NCBI RefSeq assembly: GCF_001625215.2
Contig: NC_030381.2
Coordinates: forward strand, 50,181,214 to 50,245,213
From: Daucus carota subsp. sativus
Taxonomy: Eukaryota > Streptophyta > Magnoliopsida > Apiales > Apiaceae
DNA: 64,000 nucleotides
Direction: 5' to 3'
Shown here: piece after piece, positions 27,604 to 60,015 of the stretch
Numbering within the stretch: position 1 is the stretch's first letter
How the letters are laid out: each line of letters starts with the position of its first letter
Position numbers and translations under genes: made by a program
The notes under the pieces: model-generated
The model's input: the letters and a program-made list of their open reading frames with translations, nothing else
Told to the model about the DNA's origin: nothing
The model's database searches: none

Positions 27604-28102
27604 AAAGTGTGTACAAAACAATTTAGTGCTATATATAAAAACAACTTGAGTATTCATTCATGAAACATACATTATGCGATGGACATGTTTGGTTGACTGA
27701 TTTTGTGCAATGAATATAATAATTTTTTTAGTATTAACATATTAAATATTAGATTTTAACTTTTTTATTATAAAAATAAGTGTCTTATTTATAAGAAGAA
27801 AATTTACATTTACATATATTTTCCATCTAAAAGATGCAATGAATCGCAGGTCTTGCTTGCTTTTTGGTTTGAGATATCTTTTTAGACATGGAAAGATTGA
27901 AAGATTTTACTAAAATTCCCGGAACATCGACCTGCCTTTCTGTTGTATTAATAATATTAAATATCCGGGTAATAGTTTTTTTAGTTGTACCTATAATTAC
28001 AAAGCAAGATGCATTTTAAAAAACGGTTTTTCTGTGGTGTGCTCATGGGCACACTAAGCACTAACTTTCACAAGTATGATGCATTTTTATTGGTCCTCCA
28101 AT
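26321..28102. other. AT-rich spacer, no gene seen
   Basis: It contains an uninterrupted (AT)n microsatellite of about 40 bp at 27561..27600. No coding region recognised. Confidence 0.5.
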
Positions 28103-28244
28103 CATAAATATGGATGACCCCTATGCATTTGCACCAAGTCCACCAATAAAAACTCACCAAACTCATCAAAGTTCATAAATATGGATGGCCCCTCTGCATT
28201 TGCACCAAGTCCACCAATAAAAACTCACCAAACTCATCAAAGTT
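28103..28244. repeat. 71-bp tandem duplication
   Basis: Two adjacent 71-bp units (28103..28173, 28174..28244), each beginning CATAAATATGGATG and ending CATCAAAGTT, differ at only two or three positions. There is no ORF. A recent local duplication. Confidence 0.9.
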
Positions 28245-40544: not shown

Positions 40545-41181
40545 TCAATGATTTCTTCGGACATGATTAAAGGGAAAATAAATATCACCTTTGTTATGTT
40601 TCTCCACAAGTTCGTCTGATGAAGGCATTATAATTGAGAAAAGCCTGCCATCATTCGGCGTCTCGTGGAGCTCATCCATTGTGAACATCTTACGCGGCAC
40701 ATCACTATTCGGAAACACTTCACCCTTGGCGAAAGCTATACGATTCATCGGCGTATCCCTAACTGTAAGCACTTGACCGACGATGTACGAGTTACAATTG
40801 AGCTGAAGAAACACCGGATCATGAGGCTGCTGATGACTTTTTGTCATGTTCAACATTTGTTCCTTGCTGTCATATCTCCTTCCGAGAAAAAAACTTCCAC
40901 CGATTCTCAGAGGGGATTTAAGGGGCGCGAAGATCGTGGGACTAAACTGATCAGTACTATTCGACGAGGTTAACTGATTAGTTCCTGTGGTGACCGCTGT
41001 TGATTCAGTCTGTCCGACACCATCTATAGGACAAAAAAGAAATTAGGTCAAAATTTCTAATATAGAAATATAGATCTTTGATGCATGTAATTGACTCATC
41101 ACCTGCTACTGATGAACTGCAATGGATAAAGAGACATGAGAAGATGATAACCAGATTCAAAATTATTTCGTTTGCTGCCAT
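40545..41181 (-). CDS. Secreted protein of unknown family, 185 aa (paralogue 1)
   Basis: Two exons, complement(41103..41181) and complement(40545..41023), join in frame (phase 1) to 185 aa; the 79-bp intron is GT-AG. Exon 1 codes for a signal peptide (MAANEIILNLVIIFSCLFIH, then CSSSVA). The mature part opens with a Ser/Thr-rich linker of about 35 residues. A module at about 67-127 follows, whose core reads NCNSYIVGQVLTVRDTPMNR then IAFAK. This module aligns with the C-terminus of the neighbouring 420-aa protein (NMT, NC, VG, L.V.DTP.NR, FAK shared). The last 58 residues are unique and end in NHVRRNH. I do not recognise the family. A secreted or cell-wall location is inferred from the signal peptide. 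A TATA-like run lies near 41241-41260. Confidence 0.75.
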
Positions 41182-42004
41182 TGCTTGATTCGGCGAGGGT
41201 TCCTATGTCATACACTCATTCTTCCATCAAGAAGTTTGATCTAAATATATATATTATATGAACGTATTATAATGTATGCCAACTGCTCTTGAAAACTATA
41301 TGAATTCGGCCAAAAATGCTAAATCAGTCGTTTTCTGTAAATTGTATACAATGTTCAATCAGCGGGACGTTCGTTCATACTTAAATAATATTCTATACAT
41401 ATCGTACCTAAAACGTTCGTCTTTTACGGATGAATGATGATGCTCTTTAGCATTAAAAATTATGTATGTATGCGCCAATTTTACAGTAGACAACTAATGC
41501 TAGGTATCTCAAATTCTCTCACAAATTTTTTTTTGAAATTGGGTGGTTTTTGTATTTTTTCAAATTGGATGGCTCATGTGCATATAATTAAAGATCTCAT
41601 TATTATCGGTGTCAGTGGAATCAATCATACATCGTCTACTAAGATTTTAGAAAAAAAAATTCTACTCCTGGTTAAATAAGTGTTAGGCTCTAATTGTGCA
41701 AGTGCTTGGAGCAAAATTTTCACGGGAATGAACTCCTTAAATTTAAGGTATGAAATCTTATGGTTGTAAATTGCAATAACATTATATATACAGTAGTTTA
41801 ACAAGAAAACTTCATATATAACCAAAATTTGAAATATTATACATAGCAAAACAATACATGGAAAATTCTTCACTAATATACAATATTTATAGCCGTTTAA
41901 ACAACTGGAGATTTCTGTTACAGGAGCAGCTGTACCTCTCCTTATTCATAAACACACCTGCAATACTATCTATTCGAATTTCTTTCACATCTTCGTACTA
42001 TACA
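41182..42004. other. Spacer between the two secreted-protein genes
   Basis: The left 80 bp are the promoter of the downstream gene. The open frames 41434..41679 (plus) and 41625..41873 (minus) show no motif. Confidence 0.4.
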
Positions 42005-43381
42005 TTAATCGTCGAGTGGGACCTCTTCCTCACTGGAATCATCGCTAGTTTTACGGCTCTCTTCATCAGAGAATTTGGCAAATATCATTCGGTTGTGTGG
42101 CGTATCAGCAACTTTAAGCAGTTTACCGACCAAAAATACGTCGCAGTTATTAGTCGGGTATATTTTTCTGTAGTACTCGTCACTTGTCATGTTGTACATC
42201 TCTGAACCCGAAACCATTTTTCCGTAAAATACATGCGCACCAATCGCCCGCGGTACCTTCTCGACATTCTCAGACTCCGTGCTAGTTTTCTTAGTTTCTT
42301 CGATTACACTTGATTGAGTAGGTTCAGCATACTCCGTTGATTCTTCTTTAGTCTCCGAATTTTCTTGAGTGTAATTTGTCCCTGGTTCAAGCGACATTTT
42401 CGTCGAAGGATCAGTGACACTTATTAGAGTAGCATCAGTTGTTTTGATCGGTTTATGGGAACTCGTTGCTGATAATTTATCAGCATTCACCTCAACGGAA
42501 TCAGTGTATATACCGGAAATTGTCTCGGTCTCAGGTAATTCTTCGAGACCACTAGATGCAATACTGTAATTATACACTACCTCATTCGGTAAATTTCTCA
42601 TCATTGTCCCAGCGACAATTGTGGGAGTTGGTTCAGTAACGGTTTCCATTCCTCGAGATTCATCATTCACTTGGGCTGATTTAACATATTCCGCTGATTC
42701 CATGTTAGTGCTCGGAGTTTCTACGGTTAGACTCAGTTGAGTGCAATTGATCAGTGGTTCGGTCAGTGATGTGCTGCTGCTCGTTGAATTGCTAACACTT
42801 ATTAGAGTTGGTTCTGTTTCAAATGTTGCTGTTCCTTCTCGCTGATCAATCACTCGCGCTGTTCCAGCGTCATCTATTATATCATCAGCACCTTTGATAA
42901 CCTGATCGGGATTGTCAATCAACCAAGTAGGTTTATATTCAGTAAACCAGATTGGTTTAGCACTATTAGCCTTCATCGCGATTGGTGTAGCATCAGTCGT
43001 TCTGATCGGCTTTAATGAACTCGTTTGTTTAATGTGTTTGATTCGTGACGCTTTCTTGTGACTTGATACAGCGTCTGGTTCTAGATTTGTTGGTAATCCA
43101 CGATTCACCATCACGGAACCAGCTTCCGGCCTCGAGCTTCCATCCACTCTGCGTGGTTTAGCCTTTTCAAGAATTTCTGCTCGAAAGAAAAGAAGACAGC
43201 AAATCAAATAAATATAGAACAATTGTATCTTTGTGTAGCAGATGAATTAGCAAGAGTAACAAAAATGCAGAGAAGAGACTTATAACTCACCACTTAGTGT
43301 TCTGCTTTCAACCATGGAAATAAGCAGAAGAGAAAAGATAAAAGCCAAATGAAAAGCCATGGACACTTTGTAAATTGCCAT
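42005..43381 (-). CDS. Secreted acidic Ser/Thr-rich protein, 420 aa (paralogue 2)
   Basis: Two exons, complement(43291..43381) and complement(42005..43176), join in phase 1 to 420 aa; intron 114 bp, GT-AG. Exon 1 is a signal peptide (MAIYKVSMAFHLAFIFSLLL, then ISMVESRTLS). Residues about 31-110 are basic (KPRR, RIKHIK). Residues about 145-335 are acidic, rich in Ser, Thr and Glu, with candidate N-glycosylation sites and an internal duplication (SLKPIRTTDATP versus SHKPIKTTDATL; SAEYVKSAQ versus STEYAEPTQ). Residues 340-399 form the module shared with the 185-aa neighbour, core NCDVFLVGKLLKVADTPHNR then MIFAK. The tail is acidic (SSEEEVPLDD). The middle looks disordered, as in extracellular glycoproteins. 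The family is not recognised. A TATAAATA box lies at 43419..43426. Confidence 0.78.
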
Positions 43382-43426: not shown

Positions 43427-44499
43427 CCGAAACTAAAACTTAAATATCATATTGGGAAAAAGATTAAATATATAACAAGTCATTAGTCACAACAGTATTC
43501 ATTGTTGAATATTATACGGCCGGGGATTCGTAAAATCTGTATATTATATAGTATTTTTCGTTTTGACGTGCCTGGTGCGTACATGTTTCGTGATTCTATT
43601 GCTAAACATCAGAGTCATATAATATTATAGTAGTACTTGGTAATTATCGTGAAAAATGACAAGCTACAATGTTTGGGATGAAAGAAATGGGTGGAGCAAG
43701 TGTAATTGCCTTCTCTTGTACACAAGCACTGATCATTTTGATGTTTACGCAAAAAACTGTAATAGAATTCTCATAACCTCGAATATGCTGGTCGGTTAAA
43801 CCATGTTCGTAAATAAATATGTTGATGGACATGGACGCATCTAAGAAGAGGCACGTGGGATACGTGCCCCCTAAATGTTTGTTTTACATCTTTTCACCGT
43901 TTTTAATTTTGCAAAATTATAAAAACCACCTCCATAAGATTTAAAAATATACGGATGTTTTTCCGAAATTTACTTGGTGCCCCCAAATTTTAAATTCTAG
44001 ATCCGCCCTGTTAGGGAGATGCGTAAATCATTTGCCTTTTCATTTCTCGTAGGTTATAGTTTTATAGTTTCTTTGGTATTCCGATTTTATGATACTATTG
44101 TATATTTATAATCATACAAAACTGACATTTTTGAGATGTTTGGTCCTTTTATTTGACGGAAATAAGGACTCGATAAAAAATTTCATATCTAGATAAATTT
44201 TTTTAGTATTAAGTTTAGTAGGTGTTTTATATTTCATATTAATTTATAGAAATCACTTATTTCCAGAGAAAGTATATATTTATGAATTTTTAAAATAAAT
44301 AAGTTCTTTATGATAAAATGACATTATTGACATAAACCAAATAATAAAATTGTTTACTTGCATGGCTCGGCACAGTTCTGAATTTCACTGACATACTCCG
44401 AGCTCAGATGAAAACCTTTTTTTATATGCTGATTAGTGGATGTGACATTTATATATATAGCACATTCAGTTGAGGAATTTCATAAAAAATCAGTGGAAA
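43427..44499. other. Spacer, no gene seen
   Basis: The part near 43920-44000 (GTGCCCCCAAATTTTAAATT and so on) resembles phrases found in dispersed plant repeats, but no ends could be found. Open frame 43644..43832 is not supported. Confidence 0.4.
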
Positions 44500-44963
44500 A
44501 CGCCATTTCAAATGAACCAGGACATGATTGTCGTTAGGATACATATGGGAGAATATTACAGTAGCAGATAATAAACGCAGATTACTTGGCCCATTTCTGG
44601 ATCTTCAACTTTTGTACACTCAAATGAAAAATAATAACATAAAACTTTTAATACCAGGTCAGGAACTACAAAAGAAGAAAAAGAGAAAACATGCGCCTAG
44701 AATCTGTTGACGAGAAAGGAATCAGCAGGGAAGATGAGATGAGATTCGAACAAAGTTGCAAGTAGCAGATATTATCGTTATGCAAAGATTCTCAAACACT
44801 GATCTAGGTATCTGGCTTACATGTGTGACTAGGTTCACTGATTCTCATATATGCAACTCTGCTGCTCGACCCAAAGTGAGGCAAAGAGCATGTACAGATT
44901 CGAAAAGTAGTGACAATTTGCACGTTTTGCATGCATGAATATAACTGGACTAGCTCTGTGCAC

Positions 44964-44971
44964 TATATAAA
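44964..44971 (+). promoter_or_regulatory. Putative TATA box of the first MIR395 locus
   Basis: TATATAAA lies about 150 bp upstream of the 5' arm of the hairpin on the same strand, a usual distance for a plant MIR transcript start plus short leader. Confidence 0.5.
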
Positions 44972-45117
44972 TGCACATTGTGACATGCATTAATAGGCAA
45001 GAAAAAATATCACTAGCTAGTCATATACACATACACAAATGTTGATCTTGAAGTAGTGGTTCTCGAAACGAGTGGATCAGAATTGAAGCTGATCGAGCTT
45101 ATCATGATCAAGTTATT

Positions 45118-45218
45118 TCTAGAGGTTCCTCAAACACTTCATTGGGGAATGTATACACACTTATGTATATGTATAATCAATTTTACCTACTGAAGTGTTT
45201 GGGGGAACTCCTGGGGTT
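45118..45218 (+). ncRNA. MIR395: MIR395 precursor hairpin, copy A
   Basis: The 3' arm contains at 45190..45210 the exact 21-nt mature miR395 as I know it from Arabidopsis (starts CTGAAGTGTT, ends GGGGGAACTC). The 5' arm (45125..45145, GTTCCTCAAACACTTCATTG) pairs with it over the TGAAGTGTTTG core, with one bulge in the GGGAAC part. The loop is about 40 nt and AT-rich. In plants miR395 is induced by low sulfate and cuts mRNAs of ATP sulfurylase and of the sulfate transporter SULTR2;1. It lies on the strand opposite to the LysM genes, about 500 bp past the stop of the neighbouring LysM gene. Confidence 0.93.
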
Positions 45219-45715
45219 ACTTGATTTACAAAAACGTCGCTTGCTGAACTGCCGTATATAGGTATCGGTATTTTTTTGATTATTTTTTAGGTAATTTTTG
45301 GTTGTTCATTAGCAAAACCCAAACATTCTGCTTCCTTCAAATTTGTAGGCTAATATCTTCTGATAAAAGCAGTACTAACGATTAATCAGTTTGATGTGAA
45401 TCAAGTCGCTGGCAGATGAGAAAATAACTACTAGCTGTTGCACGTAAATATCATAGATGGAAAGTATTAAAGCAGATGGCTGAAAGAGAAGCGAAAATTT
45501 TGAAGGTGTTAAACCACTCTCTGGGATTATTAGGATTACAACGAAAAAGCAAAGTCCCGGATGCATCATTTAAACATCCAGTTATACTCGAGTAGCCAGA
45601 ACAAGAAAACGAAATACAAGATGTAGCATTGGTACTTATAGCTAGGTTAAAGACCTTGTTTTACAACAATTTATTTTTTTAGTCCCGTCCTAGCTAGTGA
45701 AGATATGCAAGTTTA

Positions 45716-46124
45716 TCAAGCGGTTCCATCAACACAAACCCACTGACCCACGAACAAGGCCGCACAATTAATGTTAGGGTTGATGGAATCGAACTCAGGA
45801 GTCGAGAGTTTGAAATTCTGGGCGATGTCAAAACAAGTGTCTCCTTTCCTCACTCCGAACACAGTATCACATGCTGGAGGTGCTTTCGGCTTTGCAGCAA
45901 CTGCATTTTTAATACAAATACGAATCATGTTAAAATAGTCGTAACACAATGCAAGGTGCAATACGTTCGAAAACTGGTTCAAAAGAGATATTAGTTAGTA
46001 GTAAAGAGGCAATGTAAGAGGTGAGCTTACCATGGAAAACTGGCCTGCTTTCGGCAATTGTGATGATCACAAAAATAGAGAGTACGAGTACTAACAAGGC
46101 AGCTTTGTTGTTTAGGATCGCCAT
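45716..46124 (-). CDS. Small secreted LysM protein 1 (92 aa)
   Basis: Exons complement(46031..46124) and complement(45716..45900) join in phase 1 to 92 aa; intron 130 bp. Exon 1 is the signal peptide (ends VIITIAESR). The mature part is little more than one LysM domain: ACDTVFGVRKGDTCFDIAQ, then FDSINPNINC and ALFVGQWVCV. It has four cysteines, expected as two disulfides. LysM domains bind chitin or other N-acetylglucosamine glycans. With no kinase, GPI signal or membrane segment, this is the extracellular LysM (LysMe-like) type, not a receptor. A TATAAATT box is at 46198..46205. Likely role is in fungal or symbiotic signalling, by family only. Confidence 0.92.
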
Positions 46125-46223
46125 TTTAAATTACTCTGAACCTTGATATAAGTTAATGTTTTGGTGGTGATGGCTTCCTCATTGCAAGCCTTGCCTTAAT
46201 TTATAGTACCAGATTACTGTATT

Positions 46224-46362
46224 TTCATTAACGAGACGAACAATAACAGACGAACACTGAAACAAGAAGCATTGTTAGCTGAGATTTAATTGGCCGTTCC
46301 TTTCCTTCCAGGGGTAAAAGTTATACGAAACCATTGATCCCCGCGACTTTAACAATGGGATA
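46224..46362 (-). promoter_or_regulatory. Conserved upstream block of LysM gene 1
   Basis: About 100-240 bp upstream of the start codon. It shares words in the same order with the upstream regions of LysM genes 2-4: GAGACGAA, AAGCATTGTTA, ATTTAATTGGC, AAAAGTTA and GCGACTTTAACAA. See the separate finding. Confidence 0.6.
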
Positions 46363-47548
46363 GATCGAGCCATTGAGGTGATTCGAATAATTATTGCATA
46401 ATTACAAGTTATATGTACTTAAGCAGACAATATCTACGTTAATTGTTTATGTATTTTTATATGGCCGCGGCTAACTGAGATGCAGACATATAATACTTAT
46501 GTGATAGATGTTAATCACGAAGTCATCGAAATTTAAGCTAGCTGATGGTTGGAGGGCTTGTAGTCAAAGCTCAGTTTTAGTGGAATCCGATGAATTTTGT
46601 AAAAATCAAAACATTGAAATATCAGTGACATCTGCATTATGTTTGTGGAGTAGTTTTTTACTACATCAGAACCTCTACAATTTTGTACGCAACAAATAAA
46701 TTAAACTAGTGACCTTTATACAATAATAAATGTGATCACCTTGAGTTAACATAAAATATATAAATTTAATAAAATCAGATAATACTTTTATCGATAATCC
46801 TGATATTAGTATAGTTCCTCCAAGACATCCGAAAATTAAATTCATATAGGATCATGTAGTAACATATAGTTTTATAATTACTTTTCTTAAAATATAGTAT
46901 TAGTGAAAATTATACAAGCCTTTCGCATGCTATTCAATATTTGATCCATGTTGTTTCCAAAATGTTAATAAAAGTTTGAGAGCTCTTGAGGGCTTTCCAC
47001 ACATCATTCATAACAAAAACGGTTCAACATCTTTAACTTCATCATCACATTCATTTTAGTATCATATTCGACGGTTTATTAAATGTTAGATTTTTGTTGA
47101 TAGATACTTCCTGTGATGGTACTAATGGATATGATACCTAGATTGTTATTGCATTTAAAATAATTAAATTCAAACTAATAAATATTAATTAATCAAGTAA
47201 TAACCTATAAATGTGTTGGGATTGATACATTTTTATTGGTTTTGTTAAATACGATTTTTATTTAACACGTGTAATAAATTTTTAATAGTTAAGACTGATA
47301 AAAAATTAATTAAATATTGGTCCAAAATATATGTTTAAATAGGAATATTTAAATATATTCTAATCCTGATAAAAATTTATTAGAAAATGTTATAGATTAA
47401 AGAGTTACAAACCTAAATATCGATTAACCAAAATTTTATTATTTGAGCTTTAAAGTTATCATACAAATAAAACTAAAAATATTATTTATAACATGTCACA
47501 TTAATTTTAAATTATAAATTATTATTTTAAACTAATCAAATATACTCT
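46363..47548. other. AT-rich spacer, no gene seen
   Basis: Open frame 46508..46699 has no motif. Nothing else recognised. Confidence 0.45.
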
Positions 47549-47557
47549 AAATTAAAA

Positions 47558-47757
47558 GGGCAATGCTAGAGACCCCAAAAAAAATTCCCAAAAATCTTTA
47601 CCAAATGATGTGGCAAACAAATGGCTAGTTATGATTGGGTGATTGATGAATCTGCAGGGGGTCTCATTATTGTGGGAGTAAATTCAGCCAATCAAATTTG
47701 GACACATCATTTGGGAAAATTATTTGGGACAATTTTTTGGGGTATCCAGCATTTTCC
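47558..47757. mobile_element. 200-bp Mutator-like MITE with 9-bp target duplication
   Basis: Inverted ends GGGCAATGCTAGAGACCCC and the complement of GGAAAATGCTGGATACCCC, with pairing that continues through CCAAATGATGTG about 40-50 bp in. Perfect 9-bp flanking repeat AAATTAAAA (47549..47557, 47758..47766), the length made by Mutator-type transposases. Non-coding. Confidence 0.85.
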
Positions 47758-47804
47758 AAATTAAAATTAGTACATGCGGCTTGACTCAGGATTAACTGCG
47801 TTAT

Positions 47805-48385
47805 TAGGGCTGTTCACGAACCGAGCCGAGCCGAGCTTTGACCGAGTCGAGCCGAGCTTTAAATTTTTTCTTATCGAACCGAGCCGAGCCGAGCTTTCTT
47901 ATCGAACAAAAAAGTGTGTTCAAGCTCGAGCTCGATAACTAACGAGCCGAACACGAGCTTGTTCACGAACAAATACGAGCCGAGTCGAGTCGAGTCGAGC
48001 CAGAGAAAAATAAGGCCAAACCGCTACTTTACTTTAAAATAGCAAGCCAAATAAATTTTTTAGTATGTTTTGATGGTACCATATTATAGTTGATATTCTC
48101 ATGATCGATTTGATATATTATATGTTGAATTCGGCGTTCAATAACATATATATATTACGAAATTATTATGAAAATATTGCTTTTTTTCGAGTTTTAACGA
48201 GCCGAACGAGTTCGAGCCGAGCTCGAGCCGAACATACTAAAAGCTCGGCTCGAGCTCGTTTTCTTAACGAACAATTTTTTGTGTTCGAGCTCGAGCTCGT
48301 TAACTTAACGAGCCGAGCCGAACGAGCTCTTAACGAGCCGAGCTCGAGCTTGTTCGCGAACAGCTCGGTTCGTTAAACAGCCCTA
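47805..48385. mobile_element. Non-autonomous hAT-type element, CGAGCCGAGC family
   Basis: 581 bp, with ends TAGGGCTGTTCACGAACCGA and the near complement (TCGGTTCGTTAAACAGCCCTA), and a perfect 8-bp target duplication TGCGTTAT (47797..47804 and 48386..48393). Arms are arrays of GAGCCGAGC and CTCGAGCTCG words. The open frame 48101..48376 is made of these repeats and is not a gene. Confidence 0.92.
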
Positions 48386-48456
48386 TGCGTTATCATACTC
48401 TCGTGGTGAAAATAGTGTGAATGCGTAACATGTCCGCTTCTCGTGTAATAGTTTAA

Positions 48457-48666
48457 CTTAATACATTGTTTAAGGGTGTTATGAAGGGCAATATATTTGA
48501 GAAAAAGGTGATAACCTGCAGTGTAGCCAGCCCAGACAACGAGTTGGTGATTTTTAAATGGGTGTTGACTGTTGGTTCCGCGAAGACTCTAGACAAGACA
48601 TATGCAAAGTTTAAAGTTCCTGAACACAAGAAGTTTGATGGGATTCAGATTGTTAAGGATCTCTAG
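48457..48666 (+). pseudogene. Possible exon or gene fragment, function unknown
   Basis: An open frame of 66 codons (48466..48666) has a more protein-like composition than others in the spacers: KGNIFEKKVITCSVASP, then NELVIFKWVL, ending FDGIQIVKDL. An acceptor-like sequence precedes it (TACATTGTTTAAG). I cannot name the family and see no partner exons, so a transposed gene fragment is the likeliest reading; it may also be chance. Confidence 0.3.
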
Positions 48667-49099
48667 TAACTTTTGTAGAACATGGAGCAATAATTTTTGA
48701 CGGCTTACGGTCATGCTGATGATATTTATGATGGCGCACTCACGTAGATGATCATGAAGACGCATTTATACCCAATATTGAGATTTAGGCATCTTTCAAG
48801 AATGATGTTAAGGATCAATTTTTTCTCTAACAAAGCTTTATTGAAAAAGGTTACTTGCATTCAAGATAGTACCGAATAAAATAATAAAAATCATGAAGAT
48901 GTAGAGACAACAGAATTATATATTGTTCATAATAAAAATATTAATACAATTATTTTTATTTGATAATATTTACAAATTTCAAATACCCAACAAACATTGA
49001 AGTTGCAACACAACTGTATAAAAGCGAACATCCATGTATAATAACTCTTTATTTCTTTTTTTTTTATTCCTGTCAAAAAAGAACAATTTGAATAAATCT

Positions 49100-49750
49100 A
49101 AATTCTTTTCTTTGTGGTATCGGTTTACCACTAGAGGTAATGAGAATAATTATAGAATGGATTGCTACCTATGCCTAGATCGCGGATAAATAGAAATTTT
49201 ATTGATAAGACCTTTTCAATTATAGCCAATATCTTATTACGAATAATTCCGACAACTTCAGGAATAAAAGAGGCATTTACCTATTACAGAGATGGTGCGA
49301 TTTGATTCTTTTTTTTATTGCTCTCAATATTACGAGAAAGATACATAACATAGAAATAAAAATTTTGAAAAAAAAAAAATCTACGCTTGTTGAAGGTAAA
49401 GTTTGGAAATAGAACAATTCCTTCTGTCGTGTATCCTCCGTTAATGTAACCTCAGATGCAATGGTTTAATTGTCGACTATAGTATTGAGCGAAAGGCTAC
49501 ACCTATAGGTTCTGTTAGGTTCTGTATTTACAGGTCAATCCTACTCCACCAGTACCAATAGGCCACATAGGGGAAGAAGCACTACACCTAGGAATCAACA
49601 ACACGAAAACTTTGTTCGAAATTATTATCCCGATCCTTATCAGGATCGGAACTAACAAGAATGGTCGGGATAACAAACATCCATCTCGTTTGTATTTTGG
49701 ATACCTGTATAACCATCGAAGGCTGTTGAAGTGACTAATTTTTAGAAATT
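49100..49750 (+). pseudogene. ycf3: Nuclear insertion of plastid DNA with ycf3 exon 1 (NUPT)
   Basis: From 49171 the sequence reads as exon 1 of plastid ycf3 (photosystem I assembly): MPRSRIN, then [32 protein letters not shown]. The 124-nt length (49171..49294) and the intron start GTGCGATTTGATTC are as in plastid genomes. Upstream (49105-49170) and downstream bases to about 49745 (for example ACACGAAAACTTTGTTCGAA) also look like plastid ycf3 flank and group II intron. The product would differ from the usual one at three residues (G to R, V to I, E to I), the intron part seems shortened, and the other exons are absent, so it is a decayed nuclear copy with no function. Confidence 0.85.
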
Positions 49751-49900
49751 ATAAGACAGCTGTGTTCACTTAGATCATGAAATGCAATGAAATTTGTTTT
49801 ATAAACTGTGAGTGATCAGTAAAAGTGAAACATGTATAGTCTACAAGTAAAACATGTTTTGCATGATAACATGATTATGTGATAGACATGAAATAAGTAC

Positions 49901-49980
49901 AGCTTCGCTAAAGGAATTCAATAAGCAAATCGGTTGAAATACCTTCGCTAAAGGAATTCAATAAGCAAATCGGTTGAAAT
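49901..49980. repeat. 40-bp tandem duplication
   Basis: Two consecutive 40-bp units (49901..49940, 49941..49980) containing TTCGCTAAAGGAATTCAATA differ at one base or so. It lies at the left edge of duplicated copy B. Confidence 0.92.
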
Positions 49981-50421
49981 GCATTTTCAAATGAACCTGG
50001 ACATGATTTGCGTTAGTATGCAGTATGCACCGATAGAATTAAGTGCGGCATCAAATAACACACGCAGATTACTGAGCCCCTTCTTGGACCCCGACATTTT
50101 CCCCCACATTAAAAAAAAAAAAAGAAATTAGATTTTTTAATACAAGGTCGGGAACTACTAAAGAGAAAAGGGAGAAAAATCGAGAGAATCTATTGACGAG
50201 AAAGGAATGAACAGTGAAGATGAGGTATATGTTATCGTTATGCAGCAGCTTCACAAAGATTCTCTAAAACTGATCTACCTTACATGTGTGACTAGGTTCA
50301 CTCATACTCAGACACACCTCGTGCATCTCTGCTACTTGGCTCACAGTGTAGCGAAGAACATAAATGTGATAAGCACATTTGAAAAGTAGCTAGTGACATG
50401 CGAGTACGAAACTGCTGGCTC

Positions 50422-50430
50422 TATATATAT
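50422..50430 (+). promoter_or_regulatory. Putative TATA box of the second MIR395 locus
   Basis: TATATATAT about 170 bp upstream of the hairpin, at the place matching the TATATAAA of copy A. Confidence 0.45.
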
Positions 50431-50591
50431 GTGCATAATGGAACATATATATGCATAAGCAGGCAAGGAAGCAAGTGAATATAAGTAGCTAGCTAGTATA
50501 TATACACAAATACAAATGTTGAGATTGAAGTAGTAGTTTTCGAAACGAGTGGATGCAAAATTGAAGCCGAGCTCATAAATGATCAACTTAC

Positions 50592-50692
50592 TTCTAGAGG
50601 TTCCTCAAACACTTCATTGGGGAATTTTAACGTTAACATTTCTGTAATCGAATTCTACCTACTGAAGTGTTTGGGGGAACTCCCGGGGTTGT
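50592..50692 (+). ncRNA. MIR395: MIR395 precursor hairpin, copy B
   Basis: The mature 21-nt miR395 is at 50662..50682, identical to copy A (starts CTGAAGTGTT, ends GGGGGAACTC), and the 5' arm at 50600..50620 (GTTCCTCAAACACTTCATTG) is also identical. The loop differs from copy A in length and sequence, so selection appears to have kept only the paired arms. A functional duplicate is likely. Confidence 0.93.
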
Positions 50693-51512
50693 TTGATTGA
50701 CAAACGTTGCTTGCCGAACCGTCGTATATAGGTATCCATCCTGAACTTTACTATTTTTTTCCGAGTAGATTTGAGTCACAGAAATTTATACCTCCCAATA
50801 GTTATCACAAGTCTAGAAGAACTGATACCGTATTTTAATTAGCAGATACAGCTGGTGTTATTTTAATTGATACTAGGCTTTCCATCTCCATACATGCTTG
50901 TTTTCCCCGAGATGCTGCCGTAGAGGTTCTTGTTTGTTTGAAGCCTGTTTATAAAAAAGGGATTCTCCGTTTTAATTACCTCCTAATTACAACCCTTATC
51001 ACACATCGATCCTCATCGATTATAGTTTCTTGAAACATTGACGTTGAGAAATCTGGAGCACCACTTTTTTATTTTTTAGCCGAAGGAAGAGAGGATTTGA
51101 GACTGAAGATTTTGAATGTTGCTGATTTTACGGAATAGGTGCTTGATCTAAATATGAAACTTAGTCATCTGTTCGACAGGAATCAATATTTATAACGTAA
51201 AGAATGTTACATATAGTTTAGAGATGATGTCAGAGATATCATCATAAGATTTGAGACTTGAAATGAGTTTAGAATGCATCAATATATAGTAAACTAGCTT
51301 GTAGTCTGATATCTTTCAAGCAGTACATTAAGTAATTATTAGGATTACAGTGAAGAAGCAAGGTTTCGGATGCATCATTTGAGCATCGAATCATACTCTG
51401 AGCAGGAAAACAAGAAAATGGAAAGCAAGATGCAGCACAAAAACTAGCTAGGTCAAAGACCTTGTTCGGCTACACTTTATTTGATACTCCCAGAGTGAGG
51501 TCATCCAAGTTT

Positions 51513-51898
51513 TCAAGCGGTTCCTGCAACACAAACCCACTGACCCACGAACAATGCAGCGCAATTGATGTTAGGATTGATAGCATCAAACTCGGGAGTT
51601 GTGAGTTCGAAACTCTTAGCGATGTCAAAACAAGTGTCTCCTTTCGTCACTCCTAACACAGTGTCGCATGCTGGAACTGCTTTCGCTTTGGTAGCAACTA
51701 CTTGTTTCATAATAACAAGATGAAATTAATATGTAAACGAACTCATCAGCATTGCAGATATATTGTAGTAAAGAGGCAATGTAAAAGGTACGTAAACTTA
51801 CCATGGAAAACTGGTCTGCTTTCGGCAATTGTAATGATCAGAAAAATAGAGAGTACGAGAACTAACAAGGCAGCTTTGTTGTTGTTTAGGAACGCCAT
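51513..51898 (-). CDS. Small secreted LysM protein 2 (93 aa)
   Basis: Exons complement(51802..51898) and complement(51513..51697) join in phase 1 to 93 aa; intron 104 bp, GT-AG. The signal exon reads MAFLNNNKAALLVLVLSIF, then LIITIAESR, almost the same as protein 1. The mature LysM domain has ACDTVLGVTKGDTCFDIAK, FDAINPNINC and ALFVGQWVCV, with all four cysteines kept. The changes from protein 1 are mostly conservative and no stop or frameshift is present. It is the closest paralogue of protein 1 and part of duplicated copy B. TATAAATT box at 51986..51993. Confidence 0.92.
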
Positions 51899-52011
51899 TT
51901 TAAATTTCTCTGAAGACTTAGGCCACTACCTTGATTTAAGTTAATGTTTTGTTGGTGATGGCTTCCTCATTGCAAGCCTTGGCCTAATTTATACTACTAC
52001 ACTTACTGTAC

Positions 52012-52165
52012 TTACATTAACGAGACGAACAATAAGAGACGAACACTGAAACAAGAAGCATTGTTAACTCATACCTGATATTTTATTGGTAGCCCCTTTT
52101 GCCCCAAGGGTAAAAGTTAGAATATAGAACCCATAATTCTCAGCGACTTGAACAAAGAAATGGTT
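52012..52165 (-). promoter_or_regulatory. Conserved upstream block of LysM gene 2
   Basis: Same ordered words as upstream of gene 1: CGAGACGAACAATAA, GACGAACACTGAAACAAGAA, GCATTGTTA, ATTGGTAGCC, GGGTAAAAGTTA, CAGCGACTTGAACAA. Confidence 0.6.
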
Positions 52166-53511
52166 CGAGATGAATATTTAATGCATAATCATAAGTTTTA
52201 CGTCACTCAAGCAGACAACATGCAATTTTATAATATTTAGATTATTTATGCAATATAATTGAAGAACTTATTAGATGAATGTTTCATGAAATCACTGAAA
52301 TTTAAGCTGATGATTTGTATGCATTGACATTTGACTGTCCAAGGTAAATGTGAGTTAGAAGAGAGAGCTTGCAGTACTCAAAGCTCAGTCTAAGTAGGAT
52401 TTTGGTAAAAAAATCTTCACAGAATCACATTAAATTACAGTGACATCTACATGCAGTTTGCGGAGTAGATTTGTATATTGACCTGAAGCATATAAATGGG
52501 TCTTTTTGTCTAATTGTAATTATATCTTTCTTGTTCTTTAATTGTTCCATCTGATGTTACTGTATTCCATTGTTTATTCTGTGACAGATACTAATTAAAT
52601 ACTAATTAAATATAAGGAATTGTTTAATACATAACAGTGTCACGTAACTTAAAAACAGATTACTTATAGCATCTTGAATAGTTGGCACCCTTCAAAGGGG
52701 GCTAATTTTGACATATAACTCAAAATATTATTTTTATATTCATACTCTTCCAACTCATTTTTAGCACCCTTCTTTTAAAATACACTCCAATAGTTGGCAC
52801 TCCAAGATGCCAACTTTATTAATAGAGAAATAATAATATTTTATGAATTATTAGGACCACAAATCTATATTTTATGTATTATTGGGACCACAAATGAAGT
52901 TGGCACCCTACTTTATGGGTTGCCAACTTTTGACAACCCAAAAAATTATTTATGTATAAAAGTAAATTTTAATTCATATATAGGAGCAATTTATTAGTAA
53001 AAATAATTTATTATGTATAAATTAACAAAATATAATAAATTATTATAAACTAAGTTTTAAGTGATTATACACATTTTTATGGAGTCAAATTTTGAAAATC
53101 AAAACAATTTTTATATTCTTAGATAACAATTTATAAGTCAAATGTTGATTATAAATTTATTATACGAATAATATTAACAAGTTAATTCGACTTATGCATC
53201 CTCTTCAACAGTTCAACTTTTAAAGCAGTACTCTTCGGTTACACACACACACGAGTTGGTGCTTGTATAAGTACTTCAACGGAAACTTGATCTTAAATAA
53301 GTACTTGCGTGCGGCTTGACAGCATCCATGCATTTCTGATGAGTGATGGCCTGATGGGTAAACAGATCAGTAAAAATTGATAAGTACTATCACTTAACAT
53401 TCCGGGAGTTTCCCTTATCTCTTATGAATTTTCATTTTAACATATAATATTTAATCACTTTTTTATTTGAATTTTTAGTTTTTAACACATTGTTTAGGTG
53501 TTTTGTTTTTA
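52166..53511. other. AT-rich spacer with a probable Tourist-like remnant
   Basis: At about 52667-52940 there are inverted and direct copies of TAGTTGGCAC and AAGATGCC/AGCATCTT words, as in GAGCATCTCCAATAG-type MITEs, but I could not define both ends. The open frame 52794..52997 overlaps it. A short CA run lies at 53241-53250. Confidence 0.4.
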
Positions 53512-53519
53512 CTGTTATA

Positions 53520-54167
53520 TAGGGGTGATCACAGTCTGGTTTAAACCGCAAAATCCGCATGAACCAATCCGATATTAATCCGATCCAAACCGAAACCGAA
53601 ATGAGGTTTACGGTTTCGGTTCGACTAATTTAAAAAACCGTCGTTTGTGGGTTGGTTTCGGTTTTATATTAAACCAACCCGTTAAAAAACCGAACCGCAT
53701 ATTTATATATATATATATATATATTTAGTATTATATATATACAAAATATTAATTTTATATAAATATATTAATGTTTTTAGTTTATACTTGCTGGGTTGTT
53801 TAGTTACTTACCTTATCAATACCTAACTACAAGTCATATCAATTCAGTAATCCAAGACTTCGATTCAACTTTATGCATTTTATTAGACTAAAATTTGTAT
53901 TTTAATTTAACTATGTGAAATTATGTAAATGGAGACAAAAATGATCCTCTATTTCTAGTATTATTCATGAATCCTCATCTTTGATTATAAGCCTTAGTCA
54001 TAAACCGATCAATCCGCATAACCGAACCATTAAAAACCGCACCGCTTGATCCGGGTTAATTGGTTTGCGGGTCGCGGGTTGGTTTGAGATTTTGAAAAAC
54101 CGCTAATATATGGTTTGGTTCCGGTTCTACCTCCAACCCGAACCAAACCGGACCGCGATCACCCCTA
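53520..54167. mobile_element. Non-autonomous hAT-type element, AAACCG/GGTTT family
   Basis: 648 bp, with ends TAGGGGTGATCAC and its near complement GCGATCACCCCTA, and a perfect 8-bp target duplication CTGTTATA (53512..53519, 54168..54175). Subterminal arms are arrays of AAACCGAAACCG and AACCGCA words. AT-rich centre with a TA microsatellite near 53705-53725. No transposase. Confidence 0.92.
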
Positions 54168-54175
54168 CTGTTATA

Positions 54176-54919
54176 TATAGTGTTATGTACGTATATTTTG
54201 TTTTCAAGTTCTGCTCTTTAAATTTGTAAACTCTCTAGCGCGTGACTTGTTTTCCTGGTAAGTAGATTTGATCCTATTCCAACAAATATCATATAAAATA
54301 AAATTTAAATAAAAAATCAATACTGATCAAAGGGATTTTGGGATTTGAAGATAGACTTGGAGATAGCTATCTCGACGGATTGGGTAGAACGGGTGGGGTC
54401 TATCATAAACTGATGGACTAGTTGGAATTTTGACGAGATTTTAGTAGTTTTGAAATCATGAGACTCGGATTTGTCTCAAACACGTGATGTGATGTAGAAA
54501 ATGAGTCATATATGTTCTTAGTTTGTGTTTAAATAATATATAATTGATCATATACAGTTAATATATTGTTTGACTAATGAATGTCTTGAATGCATGCACA
54601 TGAGAAATTTACATTAGTCACCGTCATTTTTCTTATAGCATATAGGATTCCCATAATTGATCCATGCACGTAAATAGCAAATACCACATCAAAATATTAA
54701 CAGCACTGTTGTACTTCCACGTTATGGAATTCTCAGGGTTACAATGAAGAAGCAAACCTGGGGATGCATTATATAAACATCCAATTATTTAGTACCAAAC
54801 ACAACAAAAAGAACAACAGAAGTAGCTTCTCAAACTTAGCCTAACGACCTTGCTTGGCTACACTTTAGTTTATTCGACAGTACTTTCGAAACTTCAGTTC
54901 AGGAGGATCCATAATCTTT
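54176..54919. other. Spacer downstream of LysM gene 3
   Basis: No gene recognised. The last 180 bp resemble the 3' flanks of LysM genes 1 and 2 (GGATGCAT..TAT..AACATCCA and ACCTTGCTTGGCTACACTTTA), so they are probably the 3' UTR. Confidence 0.5.
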
Positions 54920-55319
54920 TCAAGCGGTTCCGCTAATACAAACCCATTGCCCCACGAACAATGCAGCGCAATTGACATTAGGGTTGATACAATTAAAATC
55001 ATGAGCCGAGAGCTTGAAATTCTGACCGATGTCGAAACAAGTGTCCCCTTTCCTCACTCCGAACACTGTATCACATGTTGGCCCTGCAGGAACTGGAACT
55101 GCTCTTCCAAAAATGCATGAGAATAAAAAACAGTTATTGTTCTAACACAAAATTATGAAAATAACAATATATTGACAATTCCTTTTACGCGAAGCAACTG
55201 AAACCAGTAGTGATCTTACTGCGGTAACCTGGTTTGCTCTGAGCTACTGCGATGAGGAGAAAAAGAGCGAGGGCTAGGGCAAACAAGGAAGCTCTGCTGT
55301 TGTTGTTAGGATTGGCCAT
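54920..55319 (-). CDS. Small secreted LysM protein 3 (92 aa)
   Basis: Exons complement(55220..55319) and complement(54920..55098) join in phase 1 to 92 aa; intron 121 bp. The signal exon begins MANPNNNSRASLFALALALF and ends AVAQSKPGYR. The LysM domain has TCDTVFGVRKGDTCFDIGQ, FNCINPNVNC and ALFVGQWVCI. It carries a fifth cysteine (in DFNCINPN, where the others have DFDSINPN), so an odd, possibly unpaired cysteine or a dimer bond is possible. No ATG lies in the second exon, so it can be missed by simple ORF calling. TATAAAA box near 55402..55408. Confidence 0.9.
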
Positions 55320-55420
55320 ATCAGATTGAGTTGAAGAATTAATATTGTACTTGAAATTGTAAATATTTCTGTGTTATACTGAATTCCCCAAAAATGCACA
55401 TTTTATAGTGAACTTCCTTT

Positions 55421-55555
55421 AGTGAGACAAACAATTGCGACAGATTATGAAACATTGTTACTTGACGACATTTAATCGGCTAGCTGTTCTTTTAGTCGTA
55501 GCCAAGGGGAAAAGTTAAATGAAACCTTGATTAAAATTTTATTCAGCTTTAACAA
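55421..55555 (-). promoter_or_regulatory. Conserved upstream block of LysM gene 3
   Basis: More diverged than in genes 1 and 2 but in the same order: GTGAGACAAACAAT, GAAACATTGTTAC, ATTTAATCGGC, GGGGAAAAGTTAAATGAAAC, CAGCTTTAACAAAG. Confidence 0.5.
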
Positions 55556-57050
55556 AGATTCGAATAATTAATACATAAATCATGATCCCATGCAGGCAAC
55601 ATGTTAATATATTTTTATTTTTTATTTTAATCTTTGTATGCTTATATACATTACAGTAAGATACTATTGTTTTATATCTTGTTGAAAATGTGGAAGCTTT
55701 CGGTTTGTCTGAATCGACCAACTGCTACACTCAGAATTCGAAGGATAGAAATTGTAATTGAGGTTCAATTCCTGATAAGAGGATCCAGATATTGGAAAAT
55801 CCTAAGAATGAAATTTATATGATTAATAATATGTATGCAGTTTCTAGAGTAAATATATTAATCAAATCACATGTGTTTTGTCTGTTTACTGCTATATGTG
55901 TTGTCGTTTCTCGTTGTTTTCCGGCAACAGATGCTTGTTTGTATATGTATATACATTCTAGACGATGCATTCCCGGCGGGTCAAGGATGTAGTACAAGAG
56001 CAAATTTATACATAAAAATATAAGTGAACACAACTTAAAGGAGTACTTTCATTTATATACAAATTTGTTTAGTTGCAAATATGACTTCAGTCCCCTGTTC
56101 AAAAAATCATTAGTAATCATCCATTCATCCATTTCATATTAAATATTTAATTATTTAATTAATCATTCGATTAATTTCCAATCAATCCAATTAATCTTCT
56201 ATTAATTTTTGTTACATGACTTTACCGATTAAGTCTGATTCCCGTTTGTTACAACACTGATTCAGTCATATAAAAATGAATTCTATCACTTTTATCCTTT
56301 ATTAATAAGCAAAAACTCTCTTTTTAGTCGAACATTAGAAGGATCATGCAATAATATTTTGTTATCATTATATAATTTTTTAAAATAATAATAACTATTA
56401 TTGTAAAAAATTTATATTGCTCAGAATTTTATAATATAACAGCTGTATATATATCCTATCAATAGAGATGCATCACCAATGGAAATTTACTTCTTCTTTA
56501 TGGAAAAATACATCTTTTACATGTATGTGTACTCTTATTATCATTATAATAAAAAAAGAAAGTTAAGTTTTCGATATTATATTATGAATCCAATTTTTTT
56601 AAAACGAGCGTGAATTTCTCATGTTCTCATTTGAATCATTATCTATATTATTTGATTTATCATTGAATTAAATTATCTATATTTTTCATTTAATTTTAAG
56701 TGTCTGAATAAGTTTAGTGGTCGATATTAGCGTAAAAAGAAGCGATTCAGAGAAAGGGTTTAATTACTTTAGTGGTCAAAATATCTGTACCACAGATAAA
56801 CAACGTATAAGAAGAAAATAGTATAGAATCGATAGAAAAAAAAGTTGTAAAATCCATTACCCGGAATGATTCCAACTACGTATAAAGAAACAAAATTTAG
56901 GAATGATGCATCTTTGCCCATCCAATTACTTAACAGTAAATCAGAAAAACACAACATGCAGTAACTTTTAAACTAGGTCTGGGACCTTGTTTCGCTGCGC
57001 TTTATTAGGCAGTCCCTGCATTCAGTTCCATGAGAGGATACATGAGTTTG
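55556..57050. other. AT-rich spacer, no gene seen
   Basis: Open frames 55634..55822, 55792..55992, 55815..56033 and 56769..56957 show no motif. The last 80 bp are likely the 3' UTR of LysM gene 4 (ACCTTGTTTCGCTGCGCTTTA recalls the flank of the other copies). Confidence 0.45.
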
Positions 57051-57671
57051 TTAAGCAGTTCCACCGATACAGATCCATTGTCCAATGAACAGTGCAGTGC
57101 AATTTACATTAGGGTTGATAGAATCGAACTCAGCAGTTGTGAGTTTGAAAAACTTGGCGACATCAAAACAAGTATCTCCTTCCCTCACTCCGAACACCGT
57201 ATCACATGTTGGAACCGGCTTGGCTTTTGCAGCAACTGTTCAATACAAAAAAATGATATCAATTTTTAGTATTAAACAAGAAACAATAGTATGTAGTTGG
57301 GGGTACAATAACAACTATTTTAAATTAGGTAGAAAATTTTTATCGGAGAAGATTTTTGTTGCATGCCAGTGGTCATTATTAGTAATGAGATTGTAGTCAA
57401 TAGAAATCCACTACTTATCCAGAAAAAAGTTGTTAGTGTTTGCCCATGAATACACACTAGAAAATCATAATATGCAGGGGGATAGCACATTTTTCGTGTT
57501 AAATTTTGTGCAGACGTTACAATTTCAAGCGGAGGAGATTTTTCAGCAAAGGCCAAATTGGAAGGCGAACTTACTGGAAAGTTTTCTGCTTTCAGAAACT
57601 GTGATAAAAAGAAAAATGGAGAGTACGAGAACCAACAAGGCTGCTCTGGTGGTGGTGTTCAGCTTGGCCAT
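57051..57671 (-). CDS. Small secreted LysM protein 4 (93 aa)
   Basis: Exons complement(57575..57671) and complement(57051..57235) join in phase 1 to 93 aa; intron 339 bp, the second longest of the five, GT-AG. Signal exon MAKLNTTTRAALLVLVLSIF, then LFITVSESRKLS. LysM domain TCDTVFGVREGDTCFDVAK, FDSINPNVNC, ALFIGQWICI, four cysteines. Differences from protein 1 (VRKG to VREG, VCV to ICI) lie at surface-type positions. TATAAAT box at 57743..57749. Open frames on the plus strand across this gene are shadows. Confidence 0.92.
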
Positions 57672-57763
57672 TTCGAATTCTTTAGAGAAATTAGCTTAAT
57701 TCAAATTATTTTCTTGATCACAAAGGCTCCCACTTAGGTTCCATTTATACTGAACTCTCACTA

Positions 57764-57895
57764 ATGAGACGAAGAGTAGGTACCATCAAACGCGACAAGA
57801 AGCATTGTTACCTGAGATTTGATCGGCTGCTCTTTCTAGCCCAGTGGAAAAGTTAACTGAAACTCTTGATTCTCAGCGACTTTAACAATGAGATG
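57764..57895 (-). promoter_or_regulatory. Conserved upstream block of LysM gene 4
   Basis: Carries TAATGAGACGAAGAG, CGACAAGAAGCATTGTTA, GAGATTTGATCGGC, GGAAAAGTTAACTGAAAC and CAGCGACTTTAACAATGAGA, all in the same order as upstream of gene 1. Confidence 0.6.
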
Positions 57896-58756
57896 GATGG
57901 AGGTATTTCAATTATTTAATTCAATATTATAAATGTATATGACTGCGGCTGAATATCAGTAGATGCATAAAGATGTGTACTTATGTGACAATGTTCGATG
58001 AACTCAGTCCAAGTGAGATCTGAATTTCGCAAAATCCAAAAGGTTAAATATACCGTGCCATGTTCATCTTGTGAAATAAATAAATAAGATCAAATCACTC
58101 ATTTTTAGTTTTTGTCATCGTTTATACTTCTTAATCTATTTCATTCCTGGATATATGTTGTCGTTTCTCATTGTTTATTCCGCAACAGATATTTAATTTA
58201 TTTGTAGAGGTCTGATACTCTAATTACCAGATAAAAACGAAGCTCAACGACTCGAGTTTAAAGATTCGGTATATATGTGGCATTTTTATTGTTTGGAATT
58301 ACATCAGTGAGTAGTAAATAAAAAAAGAGAAATTTGCAAAAATACTCATGTTTTTAAATTTATTTTTTAAAAATCCGGTTGAATTTGCATAGTAGATTGC
58401 AATGTCAGTTGAAAGCAGTTGTTTTTCAGGTTGCAGGAGTTGCAAATTAGATTACATATATATGGTTGAGCCGTATTTTTTTAAATAAAATTTGCAATTT
58501 GGGTATTTCTGAAAAAACACATTAAAAAAACCCCGAAGGCCAATCCTGGGCACATTCATCTCTAACCAGTTGATGCACAAACGAGTTCAAAACAATTTAC
58601 TTTAATCGAGTCTGTTGGTGAGCAGGTTTGCGAACTTAATCATGAGCCTGGTTCCTAGTATTAGAATCAACTTGCCAGATTTTAGTTGAGTTTTGCAGTG
58701 ACAAATCCAGTTGTTTACGAATTTGGACTTTGATTATTTCATAAGAGGTATACTTA
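57896..58756. other. AT-rich spacer, no gene seen
   Basis: No coding region recognised. Confidence 0.45.
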
Positions 58757-58774
58757 AACGTTGTGGACATTCTT

Positions 58775-59061
58775 CAAAAGGCGTATTACAATATACCCTG
58801 GTCTGCCTAGGATTTTTCCCCTTAAGAACCTGCCGACTAGCTCCATAGCCAACAGGTAGGTAAATCGGGCTAATCAAGCGATAAGACCCAGTGGGTGGAA
58901 ACTTCCCTGCGATACGCACGAATTGGAACCCGATCCCCTTTCTTCAAATCATCCCACTGTCTCTTCAACTCGGGTGAACGCCCAGGAGCTGGTGAGGTTC
59001 AAACCCGTGACCCTTTGGATCAACGCAAGGCCCCGTTTCCACTAGGACAGCTCTCACACTC
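58775..59061 (-). mobile_element. tRNA-derived SINE with 18-bp target duplication
   Basis: 287 bp inserted on the minus strand. At its 5' end (right side) it shows a pol III A-box-like GTCCTAGTGGAAACGG and a B-box-like GGGTTTGAACCTC. It is flanked by 18-bp direct repeats with one mismatch (58757..58774 and 59062..59079, AACGTTGTGGACATTCTT versus AACGTTTTGGACATTCTT). Open frames 58734..58919 and 58895..59092 lie in it and are not genes. It is GC-richer than its surroundings. Confidence 0.8.
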
Positions 59062-59288
59062 AACGTTTTGGACATTCTTAAGCAATACATAATAGTATTC
59101 ACTGAAGAACATAAATATGGATACATCATTTGGATTATTGAATGTACATCATTTATGAAAAGATTAAGCTACTTTAGTGATTCTCCTGAAAATAACTATA
59201 TTATTGTATAGCGCATTGCTGTAACAATGAAGTGTCAGGCCTTTTATTTGATTGATGCAGTAACTATGCAACTTTGCTCCAGGTTCAT

Positions 59289-60015
59289 TTATGAGAAATC
59301 TTCACTTCCTTCGACGCAGATCCACTGACCAACAAACAATGCTGTACAGTTGACATTAGGGTTTATGGATTCAAATTCACCACTTGACAAACCAAAACCT
59401 TGAGCTATATTGAAGCATGTGTCTCCACTCTTTACTCCAAACGCTAAATCGCAAATTAAAGGTGCTGGCGCCTCTGAGATTCCTGCTAATAATATGATGA
59501 AGATGAATTATATGGAAATAAGTAAGAAAATTTAAAGATATACCTTTATGTACTAAGTACAAACATTTGATATAAATAATACATAAGGACTTGTACCTAT
59601 TTTAAATGGGTCCGGATCCCTGACAGATAATTGTTGCAACATACCTTGTCGCGCCTATCATATCAACGGTAAAGAGTAACACATGTATTCTACTCCCAAG
59701 TTTACACTTTACCATATTTATCATCATCATAAGTATGTTGTAACAATCATCTGTCGTGGACCCGGACCCTTTAAATATAGAGAACGTAATATACTATATA
59801 TCTATGTGCACTTCCGACGGAAATTACTAATAGAACATTATATTGTTACAGTTTTCATTTGTAAATCGTGTGTGAAATCAGACATATCTCTTTATCCAGC
59901 TCTTACTGCGGGAAACTGGTTTGCTCTCAGCAACAGTCAAGATAAGAAGAAGAGAAAATATGATGAAAATGCAGAAGGAACGTTTGTTGTTGTTGCTCCT
60001 GCTCGACTTGGCCAT
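59289..60015 (-). CDS. Small secreted LysM protein 5 (100 aa), divergent
   Basis: Exons complement(59907..60015) and complement(59289..59482) join in phase 1 to 100 aa; intron 424 bp. Signal exon MAKSSRSNNNKRSFCIFIIF, then ILTVAESK. LysM domain ICDLAFGVKSGDTCFNIAQ, FESINPNVNC, ALFVGQWICV, with the four usual cysteines. The most divergent member: DTVFGV has become DLAFGV, the loop reads GFGLSSGEF, and the C-terminus is extended (EGSEDFS). A TATAAGT box lies at 60128..60134. The conserved upstream block of genes 1-4 is hardly visible here. Possibly the oldest copy or one under different control. Confidence 0.88.

Follow-up and report, generated by a model that had tools for sequence, protein, structure and literature searches.

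What kind of module do two adjacent, secreted-type carrot genes share, and how did such genes come to lie beside an array of small LysM genes? We addressed this in a window of 64,000 nt from Daucus carota subsp. sativus (GCF_001625215.2, NC_030381.2, positions 50,181,214-50,245,213 of the forward strand). The window lies on contig C1, and the genome searched comprised 441 Mb in 11 contigs.

Two adjacent genes and their common module

Our gene models agreed with the original prediction of two neighbouring secreted-type genes that follow the same exon plan and encode proteins of 185 aa (A) and 420 aa (B). Both carry a GT-AG intron of phase 1 directly after a strongly hydrophobic first exon, and the rest of the protein is encoded by one long exon. 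Their features, in window coordinates, were as follows:

41103-41181, minus strand: first exon of gene A, with the start codon, a stretch resembling a signal peptide (MAANEIILNLVIIFSCLFIHCSSSVA) and a donor of phase 1
40545-41023, minus strand: second exon of gene A, comprising a short stretch rich in Ser/Thr, the module, a tail of 59 aa and the stop codon
40725-40904, minus strand: gene A module, residues 67-126, LysM-like second half NC..YIVGQVLTV
43291-43381, minus strand: first exon of gene B, likewise with the start codon, a stretch resembling a signal peptide and a donor of phase 1
42005-43176, minus strand: second exon of gene B, comprising a linker that is acidic and rich in Ser/Thr, the module, an acidic tail of 22 aa and the stop codon
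42074-42244, minus strand: gene B module, residues 342-398, LysM-like second half IYPTNNCDVFLVGKLLKV
42423-42467, minus strand: B linker, one of two internal repeat copies, matching 42981-43025 at 80% across 45 nt
42981-43025, minus strand: the other copy, partner of 42423-42467

The two proteins had been described as different outside a module of about 60 residues, and this was borne out: BLASTP found 25 identical positions out of 65 (38%; E 1e-10 for one comparison), and the local alignment of mature A vs B scored 106 while the maximum of 2000 shuffles was 67. The residue pattern proposed for the module (IG...F..G, NMT, NC, VG..L.V.DTP.NR and FAK) holds in both proteins, and so does its placement, which is C-terminal in B, behind the acidic Ser/Thr-rich linker and before the 22-aa tail, and mid-protein in A, with 59 aa still to follow. 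Residues 31-335 of B include 79 Ser/Thr, 47 Asp/Glu and 29 Lys/Arg, and the N-X-S/T sites number two in A and five in B. Judged from these comparisons and from the selection estimates given below, genes A and B are real, and the module is real.

Sequence searches did not place the module in a known family. Neither A and B nor a third copy, C (described below and queried with one extra Gly outside the module), found a Pfam family at E values up to 10, no significant match was obtained in NCBIfam at E up to 1, and nothing significant was returned among PDB chains (best E 1.6 and 0.44). Thus a clear match to a known domain, the outcome that had been named in advance as speaking against an unfamiliar module, was not found by sequence in Pfam, NCBIfam or PDB. 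Two other ideas were set aside: a likeness to BURP and dirigent proteins was dropped for want of a Pfam match, and a recent transfer from prokaryotes or viruses was left without support, the 55 and 72 pattern matches yielding no confirmed relative in the collections searched.

A third copy in a duplicated segment

Genome searches with each of the three modules in turn returned the same three places every time: A, B and C, the last at C2:54688298-54688474 on contig C2. The search runs exon by exon and scores the best candidates only, so that three places are a lower bound and distant copies may escape. Gene C, which encodes 227 aa, has the same plan: its first exon measures 88 nt, the intron is of phase 1, and a single long exon follows. 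Hydropathy showed a hydrophobic first exon and a hydrophilic C-terminus in A, B and C alike. The modules of B and C are 59% identical, compared with 35-38% for B and A, and the positions P, I-G, F.G, M.N, N, V-G, V.D-T, N-R and A-K are invariant in all three. The last of these form a conserved extension, DT..NR...AK, that follows the VG strand pattern of the module. Beyond the module, C 3-121 aligns to B 5-127 and C 72-215 to B 264-404 (C numbered with the extra Gly, 228 letters). The linker of B is longer than that of C partly through an internal duplication, whose mark is the 45-nt repeat, and the C linker aligns to both repeat places.

Gene C adjoins two genes that match window genes and that, going by their protein sequences, we take to be a sugar transporter of the STP type and an auxin receptor of the AFB type. 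Their window counterparts are:

34-36.7 kb: STP-type gene
6-11 kb: AFB-type gene

The duplicated segment (L007/L008, C2:54679000-54698000) holds the AFB-type and STP-type genes, C and LysM genes; within it, the STP-type gene is oriented relative to the AFB-type gene opposite to the arrangement in the window. Synonymous divergence was 0.63 (0.52-0.79) for the AFB exons and 1.05 (0.82-1.34) for the STP exons; as these ranges do not overlap, it is the conserved neighbourhood, and not equal dS, that speaks for a shared duplication. The B-C module gave a dS of 1.16 (0.60 to unbounded), close to that of the STP neighbour. Taken together, comparison of the predicted genes and their surroundings showed that A, B and C are homologous and that C was duplicated along with the AFB/STP segment.

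For the B-C module, dN/dS was 0.25 (bootstrap 0.10-0.51, leaving out replicates with unmeasurable dS). Taken over the whole of exon 2, with 191 aligned codons, it was 0.51 (0.25-0.84), a value that includes a partly unreliable linker alignment. The dS between A and B was saturated. These values indicate that the module is conserved and the linker less so; by the same estimates the B-C module is under purifying selection, and A either separated from B and C earlier or changes faster. The proposal of a rapidly evolving family consequently applies to the regions outside the module, which change fast, and not to the module itself.

The same data bear on two alternative explanations. If the genes were functionless, decaying LysM copies, or wrong gene models, the strong divergence of A and the saturated A-B dS would be expected, but open frames of 185, 420 and 227 aa, together with the low dN/dS of the B-C module at a dS near that of the STP neighbour, make this explanation very improbable. 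The second is that the genes encode precursors of secreted signalling peptides, with a variable acidic pro-region and a conserved C-terminal piece near DT..NR...AK that is released. The hydrophobic first exons fit such a precursor, as do the acidic variable region and conserved C-terminal module of B and C. We nevertheless considered it very unlikely, since the conserved part spans about 60 residues with hydrophobic strand-like stretches, the module of A has 59 residues still to come, and no curated peptide family was matched.

Relation of the module to the neighbouring LysM array

The next genes on the same strand, at 45.7-60.0 kb, are five small LysM genes, all having a single LysM domain and a first exon that is hydrophobic:

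45716-46124, minus strand: Lys1, canonical LysM gene of secreted type (PF01476), its intron in phase 1 behind exon 1
51513-51898, minus strand: Lys2, canonical secreted-type LysM gene
54920-55319, minus strand: Lys3, canonical secreted-type LysM gene
57051-57671, minus strand: Lys4, canonical secreted-type LysM gene, exon 1 ending in ESRKLS, compared with ESRTLS in B
59289-60015, minus strand: Lys5, secreted-type LysM gene, alone in having a first exon that clearly resembles those of A, B and C

All five passed the gathering cut-off of PF01476 (E 3e-7 to 1e-10), whereas A, B and C failed it. The supported model of every array gene (5/5) has its intron in phase 1 directly behind exon 1, as in A, B and C, although one phase-2 model was possible for Lys3 as well and the acceptors of some array genes were ambiguous. 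Two LysM genes lie on the minus strand of contig C2 at 54695410 and 54707568, the nearest 7 kb from C. Among six further LysM loci, the phase-1 model was obtained in L035, L036, L039 and L050, only a poor one in L044 and none in L047. A genome-wide search with the LysM model returned 50 matches, 37 of them over the cut-off, and A, B and C were absent from the 50.

The array itself bears traces of tandem duplication. Hairpins resembling miR395 precursors (45112-45220 and 50587-50692; 58 and 55.8 bits, cut-off 56) each closely precede a LysM gene when read in window coordinates, and blastn showed that 44473-45266 is repeated at 49952-50736 (71%) and 45526-46433 at 51335-52221 (76%), which indicates that a unit of miR395 plus LysM was tandemly duplicated. 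Near-perfect two-copy tandem repeats were also present at 28102-28244 (71-nt unit, 97%) and 49903-49980 (40-nt unit, 100%).

Comparison of the module with LysM profiles by hhalign gave E 0.0013 (probability 18.7%) for five LysM sequences and E 0.0008 (probability 24.8%) for ten, each as one comparison; LysM was picked after the neighbourhood was known, so these single-comparison values are optimistic. The match spans 25-29 residues in the second half of LysM. Column shuffles did not reach the five-LysM score in 300 trials, and larger sets reached it in 0/1000 cases with LysM shuffled and 3/1000 with the module shuffled; for the ten-LysM score the count was 0/400. As real controls, 140 overlapping windows were cut from AFB, STP and ARM-repeat proteins, and none attained the score (best 15.4 vs 21.6). 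When a module HMM was run over 1367 ORFs, taken from the window and from the C2 segment, the three members ranked 1-3 and six LysM exons 4, 5 and 7-10, the sixth place going to an unrelated ORF. In the reverse direction over the same ORFs, B was the first non-LysM ORF with the ten-sequence LysM HMM (E 0.064), followed by A as 13th and C as 664th, and with a six-sequence HMM B was 7th, A 14th and C 473rd. At the DNA level, A and B had no match to the LysM genes below E 0.047.

The second half of the LysM, N-P..N-C...(L/F).VGQ.L.V, is mostly kept in A (LQLNCNSYIVGQVLTV) and B (YPTNNCDVFLVGKLLKV), while the module of C retains VG and KV but has NN. The GDT motif of the first LysM loop is absent from all three modules; what stands there instead depends on the alignment, BLASTP with Lys5 putting GSE at that position of B and MAFFT a gap. 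Of four cysteines conserved in the five neighbours, the A and B modules keep one and the C module none. First exons were also compared: as profiles, those of A, B and C matched those of the LysM genes with E 1.4e-4 and a probability of 53% (1/300 shuffles). In single comparisons Lys5 scored 25.2, whereas seven control N-termini, chosen crudely, reached 14.0 at most; seven other LysM first exons scored 6.8-11.7, no better than controls, so that the first-exon likeness rests on Lys5.

Structure prediction had been proposed originally as a check. From A and B alone it reached a pLDDT of 34, too low to be of use; from an alignment that included LysM rows, the best model showed a strand-helix-helix-strand order, three of the five models being poor, and neither VIA-align nor Foldseek matched the model to a LysM structure in the PDB. 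Set against PF01476, A and B resemble the family in a pattern like I.P..NC...VG..L.V and possibly in the order of strands and helices, but A, B and C lie below Pfam detection, have lost GDT, and have a fold match unconfirmed by comparison with the PDB.

The case for LysM is thus one of several modest agreeing lines with no single strong match. The main alternative is a separate, perhaps lineage-specific secreted family whose module is not LysM and whose adjacency to the array is coincidental. The lack of a significant family match, the restriction of the likeness to 25-29 residues at low hhalign probability, the structure model without a LysM match and the poor ranks of C alone under the LysM HMMs would all suit such a family. 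It is harder to reconcile with genes that share the strand of the array and the phase and place of its introns, with a neighbourhood preserved in both duplicated segments, with a Lys5 first exon close to those of A, B and C, and with profile scores that exceed nearly all shuffles and all real controls. We regard a separate family as possible but unlikely. In our assessment, with a probability of about 60%, A, B and C are strongly diverged local paralogues of small extracellular LysM (LysMe-type) genes. Their descent from LysM is supported but not proven, and the original statement that no family with this pattern is known is probably wrong: a diverged LysM belonging to the neighbouring array is the best reading of the module.

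Putative origin and role of the three genes

Such paralogues would differ markedly from the LysMe proteins described so far. Like these, A, B and C are small, secreted-type by hydropathy and carry one module, with array neighbours on the same strand; the LysM-like second half is seen in A and B, and all three genes place their phase-1 intron directly behind exon 1, just as the nearby LysM genes do. LysMe proteins, according to PMC2728734, measure 100-120 aa, contain one LysM with motifs 91% identical, and are encoded by intron-less genes, whereas A, C and B measure 185, 227 and 420 aa, A and B are 38% identical over 65 residues, and the local secreted-type LysM genes (45716-60015; L035, L036, L039, L050) have a phase-1 intron in the models tried. 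A, B and C further differ in lacking GDT, three or four conserved cysteines and a Pfam LysM match, in their extra C-terminal extension and, for B, in the long Ser/Thr-rich linker. No title reporting a diverged LysMe family of this kind was found among the open-access papers searched, which are a part of all literature.

If the LysM reading is right, a two-exon LysM gene would have been copied in tandem and would then have lost GDT and three or all four cysteines. The second half of the LysM fold would have been retained (in A and B, N-C and then a strand like FLVGKLLKV), the conserved DT..NR...AK extension would have been gained after it, and B would in addition have come to carry its long acidic Ser/Thr-rich linker, partly enlarged through internal duplication. 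The three proteins would be exported to the apoplast as soluble extracellular proteins, probably glycosylated, as suggested by the two sites in A and five in B. LysM domains bind their ligands through loops, and with GDT and three or all four cysteines lost, ordinary chitin binding has probably been lost or changed in A, B and C. Their ligand may be some other component of walls or microbes, or the proteins may modulate chitin signalling of the LysM type. A bolder proposal is that the module is a new small non-LysM fold, or a LysM fold remade without disulphides for a new extracellular ligand, kept by selection since a segmental or whole-genome duplication in an immune-type LysM cluster; we consider it unlikely.

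Descent from LysMe-type genes also bears on the roles first put forward, wall glycoprotein or defence-related protein. Hydroxyproline- and Ser/Thr-rich wall glycoproteins are similarly secreted-type and recall the acidic Ser/Thr-rich linker of B, but the part shared by A and B is a globular-looking module and not a repeat. Under the LysM reading, 'defence-related' is the better guess. In cotton, silencing of LysMe3 led to higher susceptibility to Verticillium (PMC5583995), which by analogy makes an apoplastic, immune-linked role plausible for A, B and C. If this reading is right, a domain of the chitin-sensor type would have drifted past the standard models while the gene stays in place under selection, and the three genes would offer a concrete test case for secreted LysM relatives without the usual binding loop. 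Domain models alone may miss such members, and gene neighbourhood together with intron phase can reveal them.
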